From Candidatus Omnitrophota bacterium (GTDB lineage: Bacteria; Omnitrophota; Gorgyraeia; Gygaellales; Profunditerraquicolaceae): a DNA stretch of 37,605 nucleotides. Positions 14,853 through 22,883 of this stretch are shown piece by piece (the first letter of the stretch is position 1; each line of letters opens with the position of its first letter). Location of the stretch: contig JADHYK010000004.1 of NCBI GenBank assembly GCA_016782485.1, positions 1 to 37,605 of the forward strand, given 5' to 3'. Under the pieces are notes generated by a model that worked only from the letters and a program-made list of their open reading frames with translations, made no database searches and was not told where the DNA came from. The translations under genes and the position numbers were made by a program.

Positions 14853-15818
14853 TTAAAGCAGGCCTGCCCTCAGAAGGTCCTGCACATCGAGCAACCCTAC
14901 GGGCCTCCCGGTCTTATCCACTACCGGGATCTCATCAATCCTCTTCTCCCTCATAATGCTCATCCCCTCGGCAGCAAGCATCTCCTTAGGAATAAGGGTA
15001 GGGTTTCTGGTCATTACCTCTTTTACCTTGCGCCGGGGAAGGCGCAAGGAATCGCTCTCCAGGTGCCGCCTTAAGTCCCCGTCAGTAAAGATGCCGGTTA
15101 CTTTTCCCTGTTTGTTTACTACTGTTGCGGAACCTGCCCGGCTTTGCGTAATTTTCAATAAAACCTGATAAACTCTTTTTTCTTCGTTTACAATTGGGCT
15201 AGACTTGCCCTTCCTCATTATGTCTTCCACCTTTAGGATAAGCCTCCTGCCCAATGCCCCGCCGGGATGGAAAAATGCAAAGTCCTTCTCTTTAAAGCCC
15301 TTTAACTCCAGAAGGCAGACTGCCAGTGCGTCGGCCATCGCCAGGGTGGCGGTAGTGGAAGCGGTAGGGGCCAGGCCTAAAGAACAGGCCTCCCTTTTAA
15401 CGGAAACGTTCAAAACTACATCGCTGTATTTTGCCAATATTGATTTATGATTTCCGGTCAGGGCGATAATCTTTGAACCGATTTTTTTTAATAGAGGCAG
15501 GAGCTGCTTCATCTCTTCGCCGGAGCCGCTGTTTGAGATTATAATTACCGCGTCCTCCGCCCTTACCTTCCCCAGGTCTCCGTGGATTGCCTCGGCAGTA
15601 TGTAAAAACAGGCTGGGCGTGCCTGTGGATGCCAGGGTAGCGGAAAATTTCTGGGCGATAATCCCGGTCTTGCCCATGCCGCTTACCACCACCCTCCCCT
15701 TTGTCCTCAAGAGAACTTTTAGGGCTTCTTTAAAACTGCCTCCGATACGGGGTTTTAAATTCCGGATCGCCTGCGCTTCAATCTCCAAAACCTCTCTTGC
15801 CCTCTTTAAGACGTTCAT
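14853..15818 (-). CDS. kdsD: Arabinose-5-phosphate isomerase (KpsF/GutQ, SIS + CBS domains)
   Basis: 321 aa; VVVSGMGKTGIIAQKFSATLASTGTPSLFLH; ISNSGSGEEM; two C-terminal CBS domains. Confidence 0.93.
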   Translation of the reverse strand: MNVLKRAREVLEIEAQAIRNLKPRIGGSFKEALKVLLRTKGRVVVSGMGKTGIIAQKFSATLASTGTPSLFLHTAEAIHGDLGKVRAEDAVIIISNSGSGEEMKQLLPLLKKIGSKIIALTGNHKSILAKYSDVVLNVSVKREACSLGLAPTASTTATLAMADALAVCLLELKGFKEKDFAFFHPGGALGRRLILKVEDIMRKGKSSPIVNEEKRVYQVLLKITQSRAGSATVVNKQGKVTGIFTDGDLRRHLESDSLRLPRRKVKEVMTRNPTLIPKEMLAAEGMSIMREKRIDEIPVVDKTGRPVGLLDVQDLLRAGLL

Positions 15819-16636
15819 TTTTCTAAAGCCGCCTCTATTTTTTTGACCTGTATCAGGAGTTTTTCCAGATCTTTAATAGCTATCGTATTCGGGCCGTCGC
15901 AGAGCGCGGCTTCAGGCCTTGGGTGCACCTCTAAAAATAACCCGTCGCAGCCAAAGGCAACCGCCGAACGCGACAACCCCTCGATAAACTGCCGCTGTCC
16001 TCCTGAAGAACCGCCCCTGCCCCCGGGCAGCTGCACGCTGTGCGTGGCGTCATAAATTACCGGATAACCGAACTCCCTGATTATACCCAGGCTCCTGAAA
16101 TCCGAAACTAGGTTATTATACCCGAAACAAAAACCGCGTTCGGTAACGAGAATTGACCTGTTGCCGCTGGCTTCGATTTTTCTGATAATCGGCAGGATAT
16201 CCGCCGGCGCCAGGAACTGCCCCTTTTTGATATTGATCGGCTTCTTTGTCTTTGCCGCCGCCACCACGATATCGGTCTGGCGGCATAAAAATGCGGGAAT
16301 CTGAATCACATCCAGCACCCCGGCGGCTGCGCTAATCTCATTCTGGCAGTGTATATCGCTTAGCACCGGTATTTTTAATTTTTGTTTTACCGCGGCAAGG
16401 ATCTCTAAGCCCTTTTCTATCCCCGGCCCGCGAAAAGAATCAAGCGAGAGCCTATTTGCCTTATCATAGCTGGATTTAAAAATAAAGGGGATGCCCAGTT
16501 TTACGGTAATATCTTTTATCCTTTTGGCGGTATCAAGGCAGAGTGCCTTTGATTCAATAACACAGGGCCCGGCGATTAAGACCAGGGAATTGCCCCCGCC
16601 AATTTTAATCTTGCCGATCTTTACGGGCCTAATCAT
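15815..16636 (-). CDS. kdsA: 2-dehydro-3-deoxyphosphooctonate aldolase (Kdo8P synthase)
   Basis: 273 aa; LIAGPCVIES, FKSSYDKANRLS, VIYDATHSVQLPG, FLEVHPRPEAALCDGPN. Confidence 0.95.
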   Translation of the reverse strand: MIRPVKIGKIKIGGGNSLVLIAGPCVIESKALCLDTAKRIKDITVKLGIPFIFKSSYDKANRLSLDSFRGPGIEKGLEILAAVKQKLKIPVLSDIHCQNEISAAAGVLDVIQIPAFLCRQTDIVVAAAKTKKPINIKKGQFLAPADILPIIRKIEASGNRSILVTERGFCFGYNNLVSDFRSLGIIREFGYPVIYDATHSVQLPGGRGGSSGGQRQFIEGLSRSAVAFGCDGLFLEVHPRPEAALCDGPNTIAIKDLEKLLIQVKKIEAALEK

Positions 16637-16639
16637 TCT

Positions 16640-17374
16640 TTATTTATCCAGTAAGTGTTCCTTGACCTTCTCTAAGTCCTGCGGGGTATCTACCCCCACG
16701 GTATCGTATTCTGTTTCTATAACTTTTATCCGGTAACCCTCCTCCAATACCCTTAACTGCTCCAGCGATTCTGTCTTCTCCAGATCGGAAATCGGCAGAT
16801 TCTTATAAATGAACAGAAAATCCTTGGTATAGGCATAAAGGCCGATGTGTTTGTAATAAACGGGGTTGCTGTTGTTGGAATTGGCGGCCAGAAAAGGTAT
16901 CGGCGCCCGGGAAAAATAAAGCGCGAAATTATTTTTATCCACTACCACCTTGACCACATTGGGGTCATTAACAACATCGGGTTCGCTAATTCTTCTCATC
17001 ACCGTTGCCATCGCTATGGAATTATTCTCAAGCAATGCGCGGGCAACATTATCTATCATCGTAGGATGAATCAGCGGCTCATCACCCTGAATATTGACCA
17101 CCACTTTTACCTCTATGGGATTTATGACCTGGATTATCCTGTCCGTGCCGCTGGTATGCGCCTTGGCAGTATAAACGACCTTAGCGCCAAAGCTGCTTGC
17201 GGCCTCTGCGACCTGTTCATGGTCGCAGGCGATAATTAAATCGTCCAGCAGCAATGCCTGTTTTGCCCGCTCCCAGACATGCTGAATCATGGGCTTGCCT
17301 GCGATATCCGCCAGCACCTTGCCTTCAAACCTCGAAGAAGAATACCTGGCGGGGATTATGCCGATTACGTCCAT
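16640..17374 (-). CDS. kdsB: 3-deoxy-manno-octulosonate cytidylyltransferase
   Basis: 244 aa; IIPARYSSSRFEGKVLADIAGKPMIQHVWERA; VVNIQGDEPLI; HIGLYAYTKDFL. Confidence 0.95.
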   Translation of the reverse strand: MDVIGIIPARYSSSRFEGKVLADIAGKPMIQHVWERAKQALLLDDLIIACDHEQVAEAASSFGAKVVYTAKAHTSGTDRIIQVINPIEVKVVVNIQGDEPLIHPTMIDNVARALLENNSIAMATVMRRISEPDVVNDPNVVKVVVDKNNFALYFSRAPIPFLAANSNNSNPVYYKHIGLYAYTKDFLFIYKNLPISDLEKTESLEQLRVLEEGYRIKVIETEYDTVGVDTPQDLEKVKEHLLDK

Positions 17375-17391
17375 CTGTCCTCTCTTTAAAT

Positions 17392-18405
17392 TTAATTAAT
17401 TGCCTCTAGCAGTTCCTGCCTGTTGGTTGTTGCCGTACCCACCTTGCCGACGACGATACCGGCGGCATAGTTGGCAAGGCTGGCTGCTTCAAGGTTAGTG
17501 GCGCCGCAGCAAAGCGCCAGGGTAAAGGTACCTATTACCGTATCACCCGCACCGGAGACGTCAAAGACCTCCCTGGCCACCGTCGGTATGTGCGCTATGC
17601 GGCCGCCCTTTTCGAACAACTTCATCCCCTGCTCTCCCAGGGTAACTAATATTGACTCCGGCTTCAGGTATTCCAATATACGGCCTGCCGCAGAGTCTAT
17701 ATCCTTATCGCTGAATAACCTGTCGTTGTCCAGACGGAAGCTGTTGGAGGTGTCTTTGATTTTTATGTTTCTCATGGCATTCTCAAGTTCCCGGCGGTTC
17801 GGCGTAATCGCAGTTACCCCCCGGTAATACGCAAAATGCTCCTCTTTGGGGTCAACGGTAATAATTTTTTTATGCGCGCGGGCAACTTCTATAAGTTCGG
17901 CTAATAACTGCATATTAATAACGCCCTTGCCGTAGTCCTCTATAATAATGCCGTCGAAATTATTTATCTTTTCCTCTATGAACCTGATAATCCTGCGGTT
18001 TAACTGCATCGGCAAGGCATGGGTATGCTCCCAGTCAACCCTGACCATCTGCTGATGGCCGGCGATAATCCTGGTCTTGAGGGTGGTGTGCCTCCCACGC
18101 TCAGTAAAGATGCCGTTGGTATTAATCTTGCTTTTTTTTAACTCTGAAAGTAAAATATCCGAATCCTTGTATCCGCCCACCACCCCTACCAGGGCAACTT
18201 TGGCGCCGAGGGCACGGATGTTATTTGCCACATTAGCCGCCCCCCCGGGCAGGTAAGTCCTTTTATTTGCCCAGACCACCGGTACCGGCGCCTCCGGGGA
18301 GATCCTCTCCACGCTGCCCCAGATATACTCATCGAGGATGAGGTCGCCGACAACAAGAATCCTTGCCCGCTTAAACCTGTTGATTATGTTTTTGAAGGAT
18401 TTCAT
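17392..18405 (-). CDS. D-glycero-beta-D-manno-heptose-7-phosphate kinase (RfaE domain I, kinase only)
   Basis: 337 aa PfkB kinase; RILVVGDLILDEYIWGSVERISPEAPVPVV, DVSGAGDTVIGTFTLAL; no C-terminal nucleotidyltransferase domain. Confidence 0.88.
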   Translation of the reverse strand: MKSFKNIINRFKRARILVVGDLILDEYIWGSVERISPEAPVPVVWANKRTYLPGGAANVANNIRALGAKVALVGVVGGYKDSDILLSELKKSKINTNGIFTERGRHTTLKTRIIAGHQQMVRVDWEHTHALPMQLNRRIIRFIEEKINNFDGIIIEDYGKGVINMQLLAELIEVARAHKKIITVDPKEEHFAYYRGVTAITPNRRELENAMRNIKIKDTSNSFRLDNDRLFSDKDIDSAAGRILEYLKPESILVTLGEQGMKLFEKGGRIAHIPTVAREVFDVSGAGDTVIGTFTLALCCGATNLEAASLANYAAGIVVGKVGTATTNRQELLEAIN

Positions 18406-19331
18406 ATTTTCTCTATTATCGCCTGCGCCAGCAGAGGAAGCATTACTTCGTGGTGCCCGACGATGTAATAACCATTGCCCGCCCCTGCCACCGGACGCGA
18501 TACCAGGTTCTGCGCGGGCCGGTAATGGTAGATCATATCAAAATTTGCCGCGGTAAAGTCCTTCACCCGGTTGCCTAAATTACGCGCCAGGTTTAACGCC
18601 TTTAAAAAGACCTCCGGCAATATTACCGCCGAGCCGAAGTTCAAAACCACCCCGCCTTTATCCAGGCGGCAGACGTTCTCGACGAGTAGATGAAAATCCC
18701 TTAACGAACCTTCGCCGGTAAGCGCGGCGTCAAAAGAGGGATGCTGATGGATGATATCCGTACCGATGGCAGCAAAGACACAGACCGGAATTTTAAATTT
18801 AAATGCGCTGGCAAGCAGGCTTAAATTTTTGTAGCGCAGTCTGGAACCGGTAATTTTTTCTGCCACCGCTTCTCCTAATCCCAGCCCGCTACACACCCCT
18901 TCTTTTACGGCGTTATTCAAGAAATCAGCAGTCTCTTTACCCATCCCGAACCTGCCGGATGCCAAGTTTTTTCCGACGTCTTCGGAGGTTCTGCCCTGAA
19001 AAGCAACTTCAAAATCATGGATGATACCTGCGCCGTTTAAGCAGATGCAGGTGATAATTTTTTTTCTGATTAGTTCGATGATCACGGGATTTAAGCCGCA
19101 TTTTATCACGTGCGCACCGGCCATGAAAATTACCGCTTTTTTCTTGCGGCGGGCGGCAATTATGGACTCGGCAGTGGCGCGTAACTCCTTTACCTTTAAT
19201 ATATTGGGTAAGGAGTTATAAAAGGCAGAAAAACTTCTCCCGCGCACAGGAGAATCGGCAAAATCAGCCTTTTTTACCTTGCTAAACCTTTTCTTTACTG
19301 AATATCTCTTTACCTTATTTATATTAATCAT
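18402..19331 (-). CDS. Uncharacterised protein with deoxyhypusine-synthase-like / Rossmann-type features
   Basis: 309 aa; VIFMAGAHVIKCGLNPVIIELI...CLNGAGIIHDFEVAFQGRTSEDV...AIGTDIIHQHPSFD...VVLNFGSAVILPEVFLKALN; overlaps the start of the heptose kinase by 4 nt. Confidence 0.5.
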   Translation of the reverse strand: MININKVKRYSVKKRFSKVKKADFADSPVRGRSFSAFYNSLPNILKVKELRATAESIIAARRKKKAVIFMAGAHVIKCGLNPVIIELIRKKIITCICLNGAGIIHDFEVAFQGRTSEDVGKNLASGRFGMGKETADFLNNAVKEGVCSGLGLGEAVAEKITGSRLRYKNLSLLASAFKFKIPVCVFAAIGTDIIHQHPSFDAALTGEGSLRDFHLLVENVCRLDKGGVVLNFGSAVILPEVFLKALNLARNLGNRVKDFTAANFDMIYHYRPAQNLVSRPVAGAGNGYYIVGHHEVMLPLLAQAIIEKI

Positions 19332-19420
19332 ACGAATTTATAAGTATACCACAAATTCAGCCAAATTCAACCGATAATTACCCTTAAGAACTGCCAGTGA
19401 CATTTCTTAAACGCTCTTTT

Positions 19421-19617
19421 TGCGGCGGGCAAGGCTCGTGATTTCGAGGGACGTGGAGGCAAGGAGCGGGCATGGTTCCCGCAGCCGGCTCCTAAATTAA
19501 AAAGACGGATTTATCCACCACCCGGCTGCGGGAGAGCGACGCAGCCGACCCGAGCGAAGCATTTCCACGCTGGGGAAATGCGAGCGTTCCCGAGAAACAC
19601 GAGCCTTGCCAGACGCA
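19421..19617. repeat. Large imperfect inverted-repeat element with three internal hairpins (possible ncRNA or non-autonomous mobile element)
   Basis: Outer 13 bp perfect arms GGCAAGGCTCGTG (19428-19440)/CACGAGCCTTGCC (19598-19610); internal stems 19463-19492, 19523-19547, 19559-19581. Confidence 0.7.
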
Positions 19618-19658
19618 AAACGTCATAGAGTGAGAAGAGTGACAAGGGCACTACCAGC

Positions 19659-21695
19659 TCAACTTTTCAGAATCAGTTCCGCTGCCTGGAGCACGTCATC
19701 CACGGTGATCGCCTTCAGGCAGGTAAACTCCCTGACGCAATTATGCGCCAGGCATTCGATGCAACCGACGTCCTTATGCAGGGCTTTATCCTTTGCGCCC
19801 AGCGGCCCCCAGCGCCTGGGGCTTAAACCTGCTTGAGACCTGCCGAAGATAGAGATAACAGGAGTGCCGACGGCAGAGGCGATATGCACCGGCCCTGAAT
19901 CATTCGATATAAACAAACGGCACTTTTTAAGGATGCTGGCTAATTGACTTACCGAACTCCTGCCTGCCAGATTTAGCGCAGGAGTTTTCATCTTCTTTAT
20001 TACCACCTGCGCCCGAGCAATATCCTTTGGCCCGGCGATAATTAAAACCTTAAATTTATATTCCTGAACCAGTCTATCGGCGACCTCGGCAAAGCGTTCG
20101 TTCGGCCAGATTTTAGACGGGCAGCTTGCGCCGGGATGGATGATCAGTATCTGGTCTTCTTCTTTGATGCCGCTCTCTCTCAATATCTCTTTTGCCCACT
20201 CCTCTGATTCCGGTTTTATGGGCATGAATAAATCTTTGGCAGCGGGCCGGATCCCCAGAGCTTTAAGGAGATCAAAATTGTATTCCAGCTCATGCTTCTC
20301 TCCGAATTGCTTACGGTGTTTTATCCTGTCGGTAAGCAGCATCCCTAATTTGCGGTCATAGCCGATTCTTCTGGGTATTGCCGCAAAAAAAGTTACCAGG
20401 TGCACGCGGTTGGTCGGATGCAGAATTAAGGCCAGGTCAAATTTCCTCTTCTTCAGGCTGCAGGCAAACTTCAGAGAACCAAACCACCCCTTATGCCTGG
20501 CATCTTTATCGTAAATTATCACCTCATCCAGCCAGGGGTTGCCTTCGGCGATATCTCTTGCATAAGCACTCACCATCATCGCAATATACGCATCAGGATA
20601 CGCCTCTCTTAATGCCTTAATCACAGGCGTTGAAAGCAAGACATCTCCGATGCGGTCGGTGCGCACAACGAGTATCCTTTTAAAAATATTATTCTGTCTG
20701 TGGACTATTGGACACTGCCGACTATGGACTAAGAGTTGCTTTACCTGCCTTAATACCTCCTCCACCGTCACCAGCCTCATGCAATCCAGAGTCCCGAACC
20801 TGCACTGCGCCTTTTCGCAGGGGCGACAGAAGACCTCTTTTTTTACCACCGCACTTGTATCAGACCAGGGGCCGTATTTTCTATCGTCAGTGGGCCCAAA
20901 GACTGCCAGCACGGGAATATTCAGGTAGCTCCCCAAGTGCAATACCGCGCTGTCATTGCTGATCAATAACGCCGTTTCCTTTAGCAACGCCCCCAGTTGA
21001 GAAAGGGTGGTCTGCCCGCAAAGATTAACCAGCCCGGCTTTTGGGTCCTTTTGAATAATATAATCGGCAATCTGGCGGTCATCCCGGTCGCCTGCCAGGA
21101 TTATCCTGAACTCCTGCTGCGCAAGCTCTCTGCAAAGCAGGCTGAATTTATCCCTGCCCCACCTTTTAATATGGCTCCTTGCCCCCGGCGCAATAACAAT
21201 AATCTTATCGTCTTTTTTGATATTATTTTCTATGAATATTTTCTCAATGTACTCTTCATCATCCTTTTTTATCGGTAAAGAAATTGTTTTACTGGCAAGT
21301 TTTTTACTATGGACTATGGACCACCGACTATAGGCTTTATAAAGGTGCCTGTCTTTCATATGCATATCCGCAGGAATACGCAAAAAGGCGGGAATTTTAT
21401 ATTGCGCAGGAAGCAATGCCCCAAAGAGCGTGTTGCGTAAATCGATAACCGCGTCAAATTTTTCTTTTTTTAAGCGCAAGAAAATCCGGAAGTTTTCTTT
21501 AAAGCCGGCGCGCTTTTGATAGGCAATCAGCTTTTCTATCCGCGGGTTATCCTCGAATAGCTGCCTCGGCCGCTCTGCGGTAATTAGCGTAATCCTTGCC
21601 TGAGGAAACTTCTGGCATAAAAAATCTAAGGCCGGCAAAGTTAAAATACAATCGCCGATATTGCTTAAGGTTATAAATAGGATTTTTTTAACCAT
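19659..21695 (-). CDS. Tandem GT9-GT9 (ADP-heptose:LPS heptosyltransferase-like) fusion protein
   Basis: 678 aa; two complete GT9 cores: LFITLSNIGDCILTLPAL...LISNDSAVLHLGSYLNIPVLAVFGPTD and ILVVRTDRIGDVLLSTPVI...FISNDSGPVHIASAVGTPVISIFG. Confidence 0.88.
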   Translation of the reverse strand: MVKKILFITLSNIGDCILTLPALDFLCQKFPQARITLITAERPRQLFEDNPRIEKLIAYQKRAGFKENFRIFLRLKKEKFDAVIDLRNTLFGALLPAQYKIPAFLRIPADMHMKDRHLYKAYSRWSIVHSKKLASKTISLPIKKDDEEYIEKIFIENNIKKDDKIIVIAPGARSHIKRWGRDKFSLLCRELAQQEFRIILAGDRDDRQIADYIIQKDPKAGLVNLCGQTTLSQLGALLKETALLISNDSAVLHLGSYLNIPVLAVFGPTDDRKYGPWSDTSAVVKKEVFCRPCEKAQCRFGTLDCMRLVTVEEVLRQVKQLLVHSRQCPIVHRQNNIFKRILVVRTDRIGDVLLSTPVIKALREAYPDAYIAMMVSAYARDIAEGNPWLDEVIIYDKDARHKGWFGSLKFACSLKKRKFDLALILHPTNRVHLVTFFAAIPRRIGYDRKLGMLLTDRIKHRKQFGEKHELEYNFDLLKALGIRPAAKDLFMPIKPESEEWAKEILRESGIKEEDQILIIHPGASCPSKIWPNERFAEVADRLVQEYKFKVLIIAGPKDIARAQVVIKKMKTPALNLAGRSSVSQLASILKKCRLFISNDSGPVHIASAVGTPVISIFGRSQAGLSPRRWGPLGAKDKALHKDVGCIECLAHNCVREFTCLKAITVDDVLQAAELILKS
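20697..20732. repeat. Short repeat (copy 2 of AGTCGG..TCCATAGTCCA type) inside GT9-GT9 ORF
   Basis: Minus strand CTTAGTCCATAGTCGGCAGTGTCCAATAGTCCACAGA, encoding LVHSRQCPIVHR. Confidence 0.65.
21306..21333. repeat. Short repeat (copy 1 of AGTCGG..TCCATAGTCCA type) inside GT9-GT9 ORF
   Basis: Minus strand CCTATAGTCGGTGGTCCATAGTCCATAGT, encoding YSRWSIVHS. Confidence 0.65.
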
Positions 21696-21730
21696 AATTA
21701 TTAAAAACGCAAAAAGAATGCAATATAGAG

Positions 21731-21860
21731 TTAGATTATCAGTGTATCAGAATATCAGAACTGGAATATCAGAAAACCAGAGTATCAGAAGAAACGTCAG
21801 AATCTAATGTTCTGATAATCTGATTCTCTCGCTCCGATAATCTGATATTCCGATATTCTA
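21731..21860. repeat. Degenerate TATCAGA/TCTGATA short-repeat cluster between GT9 genes
   Basis: Multiple TATCAGA-type units then TCTGATA-type units; AGATTATCAG (21733-21742) is complementary to CTGATAATCT (21812-21821). Confidence 0.7.
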
Positions 21861-22883
21861 ACAGGAATTAAATCCTCTTACCTTCTCCATTACCTCCTCT
21901 ACGCTGATCGCCTTCATACACCGGTTGTCCCTGCAGTGCACTACATAACAGGGGATGTTGCAGCCGACGTCTTTTAAAATAAGGGTAACGTTTTTTGAGG
22001 GGTAAGGGCCGGTAACTTCGGGCGAGGTCGGCCCAAAAAGGGCAATGATTTTTTTGGCGCCCGCGGCAGTAGCGATATGCAAAGGACCGGTGTCGGCGCT
22101 GATAAATAAATCCGCCCTCTTAGACAGGGCTGCTAATTGTTTTAAATTTAATACCCCGCAGGCAATCACCGGCTTCTCTTTCATTTTATCGCTGATACCG
22201 GCGGCCAGCTTCCGGTCATGCCCCGCCCCGGTAATCACAACTTTTGCCGCAAATTCAACGCTCAGCCTATCGGCCAACTCCGCCCAGTTTTCCTTAGGCC
22301 AGCGTTTAGGAAGCCAGTTGCCGCCCGGATTTATAACCGCCAGGAAATCAGTTTCGCCTATGGCGTTTTCTTTCAAAAAACTTTTTATGAAAGCCCCATC
22401 TTCCTCAGTTACGAAAAACTCCGGATACCTGTCTTCGACCCTTAACCCCGCCTGTTCAATTATCCTGAGGTAATAATCGATGCGGTGCAAGCTATCCTGT
22501 TTGGGGGGAGAAATCTTTTTAGAAAGCAGAAAACCGCGCTTTTTCGTAACATACCCTATTATCTGGCTAATCCCTGCAAGGCGGCAGATCAGCGCACGGC
22601 TAAACGACCGGTGCAGTAAAAATGCGGTATCAAATCTTTTGCTGCGCAATAGCTTCACAAAGCGCAGCTGCGCCACTATGCTCTTCTGCCTGCCCTTTTC
22701 GTTAAAGATGAGTATTTCATCCAGATGGGGGTTTCCTTTGAGGACCGGATAACAGCGCTCCGGAATGATGCAGGAGATAAAGCTATCAGGAAAACTGTGC
22801 CTGATGTTCCTTATCGTGGCGGTAGAGAATAATACGTCTCCCACCCAGTTAACGTTAAAAATAAGTATGCGTTTTGCCTTCAT
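21858..22883 (-). CDS. GT9 heptosyltransferase (WaaF/lipopolysaccharide heptosyltransferase II-like)
   Basis: 341 aa; ILIFNVNWVGDVLFSTATIRNIR; NPGGNWLPKRWPKENWAEL; FISADTGPLHIATAAGAKKIIALFGPTSP. Confidence 0.88.
   Translation of the reverse strand: MKAKRILIFNVNWVGDVLFSTATIRNIRHSFPDSFISCIIPERCYPVLKGNPHLDEILIFNEKGRQKSIVAQLRFVKLLRSKRFDTAFLLHRSFSRALICRLAGISQIIGYVTKKRGFLLSKKISPPKQDSLHRIDYYLRIIEQAGLRVEDRYPEFFVTEEDGAFIKSFLKENAIGETDFLAVINPGGNWLPKRWPKENWAELADRLSVEFAAKVVITGAGHDRKLAAGISDKMKEKPVIACGVLNLKQLAALSKRADLFISADTGPLHIATAAGAKKIIALFGPTSPEVTGPYPSKNVTLILKDVGCNIPCYVVHCRDNRCMKAISVEEVMEKVRGFNSC

Follow-up and report, generated by a model that had tools for sequence, protein, structure and literature searches.

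Genomic context and anatomy of the element

The window analysed here, i.e., the whole stretch of 37,605 nucleotides at the start of contig JADHYK010000004.1 of a Candidatus Omnitrophota bacterium (assembly GCA_016782485.1), carries at 14853-22883 a KDO/heptose LPS run, which includes a KpsF/KdsD-like isomerase, kdsA, kdsB, a heptose-7-phosphate kinase (rfaE domain I), a GSU2086-family gene and heptosyltransferases, among them a fused two-domain protein. The gene for the latter also adjoins the orthologous site in other genera, as judged by positional comparison. Between the two flanking genes lies a gap of 327 bp (19332-19658), which contains no convincing ORF, in agreement with an earlier, sequence-only reading that had put it at about 330 bp. 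This gap is occupied by the long form of a palindromic element (Table 1), which matched the family covariance model R1 at 19417-19624 (123.8 bits, E 6e-31). Elsewhere in the window, the intergenic stretch 21727-21851 was found to hold several overlapping imperfect inverted repeats of ATCAGA-like units.

Table 1. Position of the element, its parts and its neighbours in the window.
Feature	Position	Strand	Remarks
GSU2086-family gene, flanking	18402-19331	-	First of the kinase/kdsB/kdsA/kdsD run
Candidate remnant of the right end of family B, AAGAACTGCCAGTGACATTTCTTAAAC	19386-19412	+	Lies 5' of the element; its resemblance to GAAACTTGCCAGTGTCATTTATATATA beside other copies suggests this assignment
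Whole palindromic element, long form	19418-19621	+	Strand set by the conserved core motifs
Left outer arm, TTTTGCGGCGGGCAAGGCTCGTGATTTC	19418-19446	+	Pairs with 19592-19620
Junction helix, 5' side (AGGGACGT region)	19447-19455	+	Tandem GA before it, opposite a GA across
Unpaired conserved motif 1, GAGCGGGCATGGTT	19464-19477	+	Near-invariant in 87 copies
Variable-length hairpin, CCCGCAGCCGG...CCGGCTGCGGG	19478-19532	+	Helix 7 of alignment A3
Unpaired conserved motif 2, AGAGCGA	19533-19539	+	From the alignments
Conserved motif 3, GAGCGAAG	19552-19559	+	From the alignments
Third hairpin, GCATTTCC-ACGCTGG-GGAAATGC	19559-19581	+	Conserved loop (CC)WCGCWGG(GG); helix 8 of A3
Junction helix, 3' side, GCGTTCCC	19584-19591	+	Pairs with the 5' side
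Right outer arm, GAGAAACACGAGCCTTGCCAGACGCAAAA	19592-19620	+	Pairs with the left outer arm
Gene with two fused heptosyltransferase domains, flanking	19659-21695	-	

Folded as RNA, the + strand of the element reached -104.2 kcal/mol (z = -6.98), which none of 200 shuffled sequences equalled, and the minus strand (z = -5.19) was likewise better than every shuffle. The outer arms, which the sequence-only reading saw as closing the structure, are 88% complementary over 26 nt (19418-19443 with 19595-19620), within an element that begins and ends as TTTTGCGG...GACGCAAAA. Its third hairpin was also present (19559-19566/19574-19581) and proved to be conserved in the family. By contrast, its first two hairpins did not survive comparison: the letters of GGAGC/GCTCC (19463-19467/19488-19492) and CGGCTGC/GCAGCCG (19523-19529/19541-19547) are indeed there, but these pairings are broken in relatives, for example by a GGATGC opposite GCAGCC in L018 and L042, and they overlap the conserved hairpin CCCGCAGCCGG/CCGGCTGCGGG, which pairs 19478-19488 with 19522-19532 and in which 98.5% of the closing-pair cells of the family alignment are paired. 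Across 87 relatives, the proposed branched structure was conserved in its outer arms and third hairpin and not in its first two hairpins.

From 5' to 3', the layout of the family consists of outer arms with internal mismatches, a GA/GA tandem in many copies, the junction helix, the motif GAGCGGGCANGGTT, then a hairpin whose length differs between copies (about 20 nt in the short forms, 55 nt in the window copy), the motif AGAGCGA, another helix, then GAGCGNAG and, finally, the hairpin with the loop (CC)WCGCWGG(GG), whose stem is fully variable. A pseudoknot between the loop of the third hairpin and AGCGT was attractive in the window copy, but was rejected as the partner showed no covariation.

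Copies and distribution

The genome that contains the window (an assembly of 1.04 Mb in 62 contigs, about 90% complete) harbours five near-full copies, 88-100% identical and located at unrelated sites, together with fragments; the covariance model counts six copies. Copies in relatives were more divergent and often matched in two blocks only, a consequence of the middle hairpin occurring in both short and long versions; element length in the family is about 140-250 bp. Of 384 Omnitrophota genomes, 173 gave matches to model R1, in a search giving copies per genome up to 7 (7 meaning at least 7). In chosen genomes, the covariance model found 30 copies (G033), 21 (G011 and G316), 19 (G010), 16 (G190), 2 (Velamenicoccus LiM, CP019384, at 1164284-1164448 and 1502625-1502790) and 0 (G134), so that the further copies for which the sequence-only reading had suggested a search do exist, both in the genome itself (about six) and in relatives (up to 30).

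A degenerate DNA pattern applied to 84,980 species yielded more than 111 stretches; among the matches listed, nearly all belonged to Candidatus Omnitrophota, the complete Velamenicoccus archaeovorus genome among them, and those outside this phylum were a few Ratteibacteria and unnamed-bacteria records and two Aminicenantes records. It should be noted that the element matches in two Aminicenantes-labelled contigs (L100, 79.6 bits; L124, 52.1 bits) reflect either transfer outside Omnitrophota or mis-binning. Neither IMG/VR nor phage and plasmid records contained a match to the element, and a phage or plasmid origin was rejected on this ground. No covariance model of Rfam, including the HEARO/omega RNA families, matched within the window, and a search of eight loci with permissive filters gave nothing plausible overlapping the element, so the statement that no known RNA family is recognised still holds. 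Such repeats are unmentioned in the Omnitrophota literature searched, which consisted of papers available without subscription. We are apparently dealing with a real, phylum-wide, dispersed and palindromic family that has so far gone undescribed.

Two side observations were made during these searches. RF00169 (small bacterial SRP RNA) was unmatched in 59 Omnitrophota genomes, versus 9 of 14 controls in which it was found, and the SRP RNA of the class to which the window belongs may have diverged or belong to a different type. A JAPLLR genome (L070, L072, L095, L103) carries a short palindrome with the outer arms of the element and a tiny, different core (TTTAGCGGGTGACTTGGCTTGATCCGAGCACGGC...CAGGACAAGCCAAGGCAGGACCCGCTAAA), in opposite orientation directly upstream of full elements, which is possibly a deletion derivative.

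Orientation, close neighbours and sister families

A simple ORF caller placed 61 of 91 copies between co-directional genes, 28 in the sense and 33 in the antisense orientation. A cis-regulator or riboswitch was dismissed on account of this random orientation. The gene tmk lies downstream of three sense copies (L021, L030, L031), but the orientation to tmk is opposite in L090.

Copies close to one another followed a rule. In the loci examined, 14 pairs of elements were separated by less than 100 nt, and all 14 were divergent, 5'-to-5', with no tandem and no convergent pair. Some of these pairs (three in G011, two or three in G033) are separated by a shared gap sequence, leaving perhaps nine independent ones, for which the chance of a uniform 5'-to-5' arrangement, at one in four each, is about 4e-6. 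The mates of close pairs are 54-69% identical, which points to separate insertions rather than inverted duplicates, and their gaps, down to 7 nt, leave no room for promoters. Such a rule is expected if insertion sets the 5' end beside a target usable from both strands, as we infer.

Two further families, B and C, dispersed and palindromic as well, were found 5' of many copies. Family B, with the core ...GGCTAAAAYCKMCATTCGCTCG..., has variable complementary arms and covarying hairpins; it occurred in 17 of 40 relatives (G010, G013, G022 and others) and not once in a reversed-pattern control. It lies upstream of the element at L020, L025, L035, L039, L053, L115, L175 and L183, and comparison of coordinates gave several B copies neighbouring the element in G006, G010, G013 and G016. 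Family C (TTCGCCGTGTGCTACGGTTTACGG...) is dispersed and was repeatedly seen about 130-150 nt 5' of the element (L034, L045, L101, L171 and L174; C18, C68, C1 and C56 of G007); four such neighbours were counted in G007 by the same comparison.

Covariation and the level at which pairing is selected

The complementarity of the element was clearly maintained across copies of differing sequence. In alignment A3 (87 copies, fitted to the covariance model), 84.7% of cells were paired, versus 60.4% after shuffling and less than 46% when slid, and 904 cells showed double changes versus 265 expected; 44 of 47 pairs had changed on both sides somewhere. An alignment made with MAFFT only gave the same core covariation. 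The helices conserved across the 87 copies were the outer arms, the junction helix, the CCCGCAGCCGG/CCGGCTGCGGG hairpin and the third hairpin. The outer arms differ in sequence among copies and retain their complementarity, with changes on both sides in nine of nine outer pairs; the junction helix (helix 4 of A3) was 87% paired, with double changes, and the third hairpin was 98.5% paired, seven of its eight pairs having changed on both sides.

A structure selected as RNA is expected to accept G.U much more readily than A.C. At the variable pairs of the element, however, G.U and A.C were equally rare, both in A3 (23 versus 21) and when 92 copies were aligned independently with MAFFT (7 versus 6), and the third hairpin alone contained 649 Watson-Crick cells, 2 G.T and 3 A.C. 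RNase P RNA of the same class, used as a control, gave 71 G.U versus 8 A.C at its variable pairs, and tRNA stems gave 36 versus 0, the latter being a weaker control since ARAGORN may bracket standard pairs only. The equal rarity of both mismatches argues for a complementarity policed equally on both strands, as in a DNA palindrome (or in RNA from both strands).

These observations bear directly on a multicopy structured ncRNA, i.e., a trans-acting RNA or ribozyme on the + strand, spread by duplication. Strong covariation combined with near-invariant unpaired motifs would suit such an RNA, and RNA folding was indeed more favourable on the + strand in 113 of 114 copies, with a mean difference of 9.2 kcal/mol; the unpaired motifs of this strand are purine-rich and RNA-like, with tandem GA/GA and single G.A mismatches that are conserved. 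The motifs are therefore strand-specific. Yet the pairing lacks the G.U excess seen in RNase P and tRNA stems, 5'-to-5' copies may be only a few nucleotides apart, and no Rfam family was recognised. Neither a promoter nor a terminator belonging to the element was found at the window copy, where no terminal stem with a T tract, as in an intrinsic terminator, stands at the element end and only weak minus-strand matches were seen. We consider this ncRNA, though the main rival of a DNA-level reading, unlikely; the RNA half of the earlier suggestion of a structured ncRNA or MITE is weakened by absent wobble, random gene orientation and the want of a promoter or terminator. Recognition of single-stranded DNA would reconcile pairing without wobble with motifs specific to one strand.

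An mRNA hairpin module acting on either transcribed strand, through stability, attenuation or processing by RNase III/E, as has been suggested for the ERIC, BOX and Correia elements, is a still less probable explanation. Folding selected on both strands would likewise forbid G.U, and it is also in favour of such a module that the majority of copies lie between co-directional genes and that one lies between two genes which are 25 nt apart in a relative. However, the unpaired motifs are strand-specific and unneeded by a fold of both strands, and the exclusive 5'-to-5' pairing is left unexplained.

Apparent movement of the element and search for an enzyme

Recent movement of the element is indicated by two comparisons. 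In G147, a copy lies between two genes that are only 25 nt apart in the related G123, and another copy near this occupied site is common to G147 and G123. G123 and G190 share, at loci that are not orthologous, a 225-bp unit with 99.1% identity that comprises the element and about 45 nt adjoining it on the 5' side, whereas the orthologous DNA of these genomes is 87-89% identical. The window's own site looks old; the same gene junction, identified from matching flank sequence rather than by a full synteny analysis, is occupied in G123, G190, L101 and G033, the copy in G033 being of another subtype and reversed. These data weigh on the idea that the copies are neutral remnants, with stems perfected only by replication template-switching and with neither function nor current mobility. 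Template-switch repair does perfect palindromes and would remove G.U and A.C equally, but it does not account for the strong conservation, across the phylum, of unpaired and mismatched palindrome positions, nor for the signs of recent movement, and we regard such remnants as highly improbable.

Among 112 copies, direct repeats of 5 nt or more flanked 51, a slight excess over the 35 expected (maximum 44), but neither their length nor their offset was constant, and a target-site duplication of one fixed length was not found. Y1 transposases (RAYT/TIRYT-like; PF01797) are present in 303 of 384 Omnitrophota genomes, and family-free genomes showed no obvious difference in PF01797, the sole transposase family tested. 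The Omnitrophota Y1 genes at L190-L209 are flanked by long inverted repeats with the core GGGGACGGTTCT/GGGACGTTTCT and are TIRtrons in the sense of PMC3733652. The element was absent from all 20 Y1 loci sampled, and the inverted repeats that flank the Y1 genes are of the AGGGGACGGTTCT type, unrelated to the element; a RAYT/REP origin was rejected on these grounds. In a search limited to PF01797, no parent transposase or recombinase linked to the element was found.

Comparison with known systems

Integron attC sites are imperfect palindromes in which the fold matters more than the sequence of the stem. The element is similar in both respects, but has no RYYYAAC/GTTRRRY end boxes, lies outside ordered cassette arrays and is randomly oriented to genes. 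Like ERIC/IRU, Correia/NEMIS, BOX and RUP, it is about 100-200 bp long, non-coding, intergenic and present in many copies, and its 5' end pairs with its 3' end to form long stable stem-loops (PMC2229807, PMC3049150). Unlike them, it has arms that vary yet remain complementary, a three-way branched fold, four near-invariant GAGCG-containing motifs and close neighbours that are 5'-to-5' only, no fixed target duplication was found for it, and it belongs to a different phylum. REP/BIME with RAYT and TIRtrons are also dispersed palindromes with paired inverted units and a possible single-strand DNA substrate, REP being a hairpin of 20-40 bp that is tagged with GTAG or CGTC and flanks a RAYT gene (PMC3733652). 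The element is longer (140-250 bp), no GTAG/CGTC tag was recognised at the ends of the aligned copies, and it is absent from the 20 Y1 loci sampled.

As for the MITE half of the earlier suggestion, the element is short, non-coding, multicopy and folded, and its dispersed, MITE-like nature was upheld by the many copies, the occupied/empty site and the 99% identical copy at a locus that is not orthologous. The name MITE is nevertheless unearned: the arms vary in sequence and stay complementary, conserved terminal inverted repeats common to a transposase gene were not seen, and neither a fixed target-site duplication nor, among PF01797 genes, a parent transposase was found.

Proposed nature of the element and its significance

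We consider it probable that the element is a copy of a phylum-wide, non-autonomous, dispersed palindromic DNA family (MITE/BIME-like) in Omnitrophota, because of its many intergenic copies, conserved motifs, wobble-free covarying stems and occurrence in both gene orientations, and because of its presence or absence at orthologous sites and its exclusively 5'-to-5' close neighbours. Against this DNA family speak the better folding of the + strand, its RNA-like purine-rich motifs, the failure to link a transposase or recombinase to it in the search described above, the slight and offset-inconsistent excess of flanking direct repeats, the lack of an obvious difference in PF01797 between genomes with and without the family, and the occupation of the window's site in several genera, where the element can be old and stable.

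From a mechanistic point of view, copies of this DNA family would spread at the DNA level, a folded single strand or a cruciform being the most likely intermediate. A trans-acting recombinase may recognise its shape and conserved loop motifs, the arms needing complementarity and not a fixed sequence, and insertion would put the 5' side beside either a bidirectional target or an element already in place; neighbouring transcripts would be affected only secondarily, if at all. More tentatively, and with considerable doubt, the element may represent a new class of mobile elements, moved by a hypothetical recombinase that acts on a single DNA strand folded into several branches. Such an enzyme would read the shape of the strand together with its loop motifs and would insert it next to a bidirectional target exclusively 5'-to-5'; the class would be phylum-wide and accompanied by at least two sister families (B and C).

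To our knowledge, small palindromic repeats are mostly confined to one genus or family, and compensatory change has rarely been shown for them. The family described here extends over an entire uncultured phylum and displays strong covariation, yet without the G.U signature of RNA. Counting G.U versus A.C thus offers a sequence-only test of DNA-level versus RNA-level folding, and the family is a warning for RNA-discovery pipelines that covariation alone is no proof of RNA. It also points to a candidate enzyme handling folded DNA in Omnitrophota.
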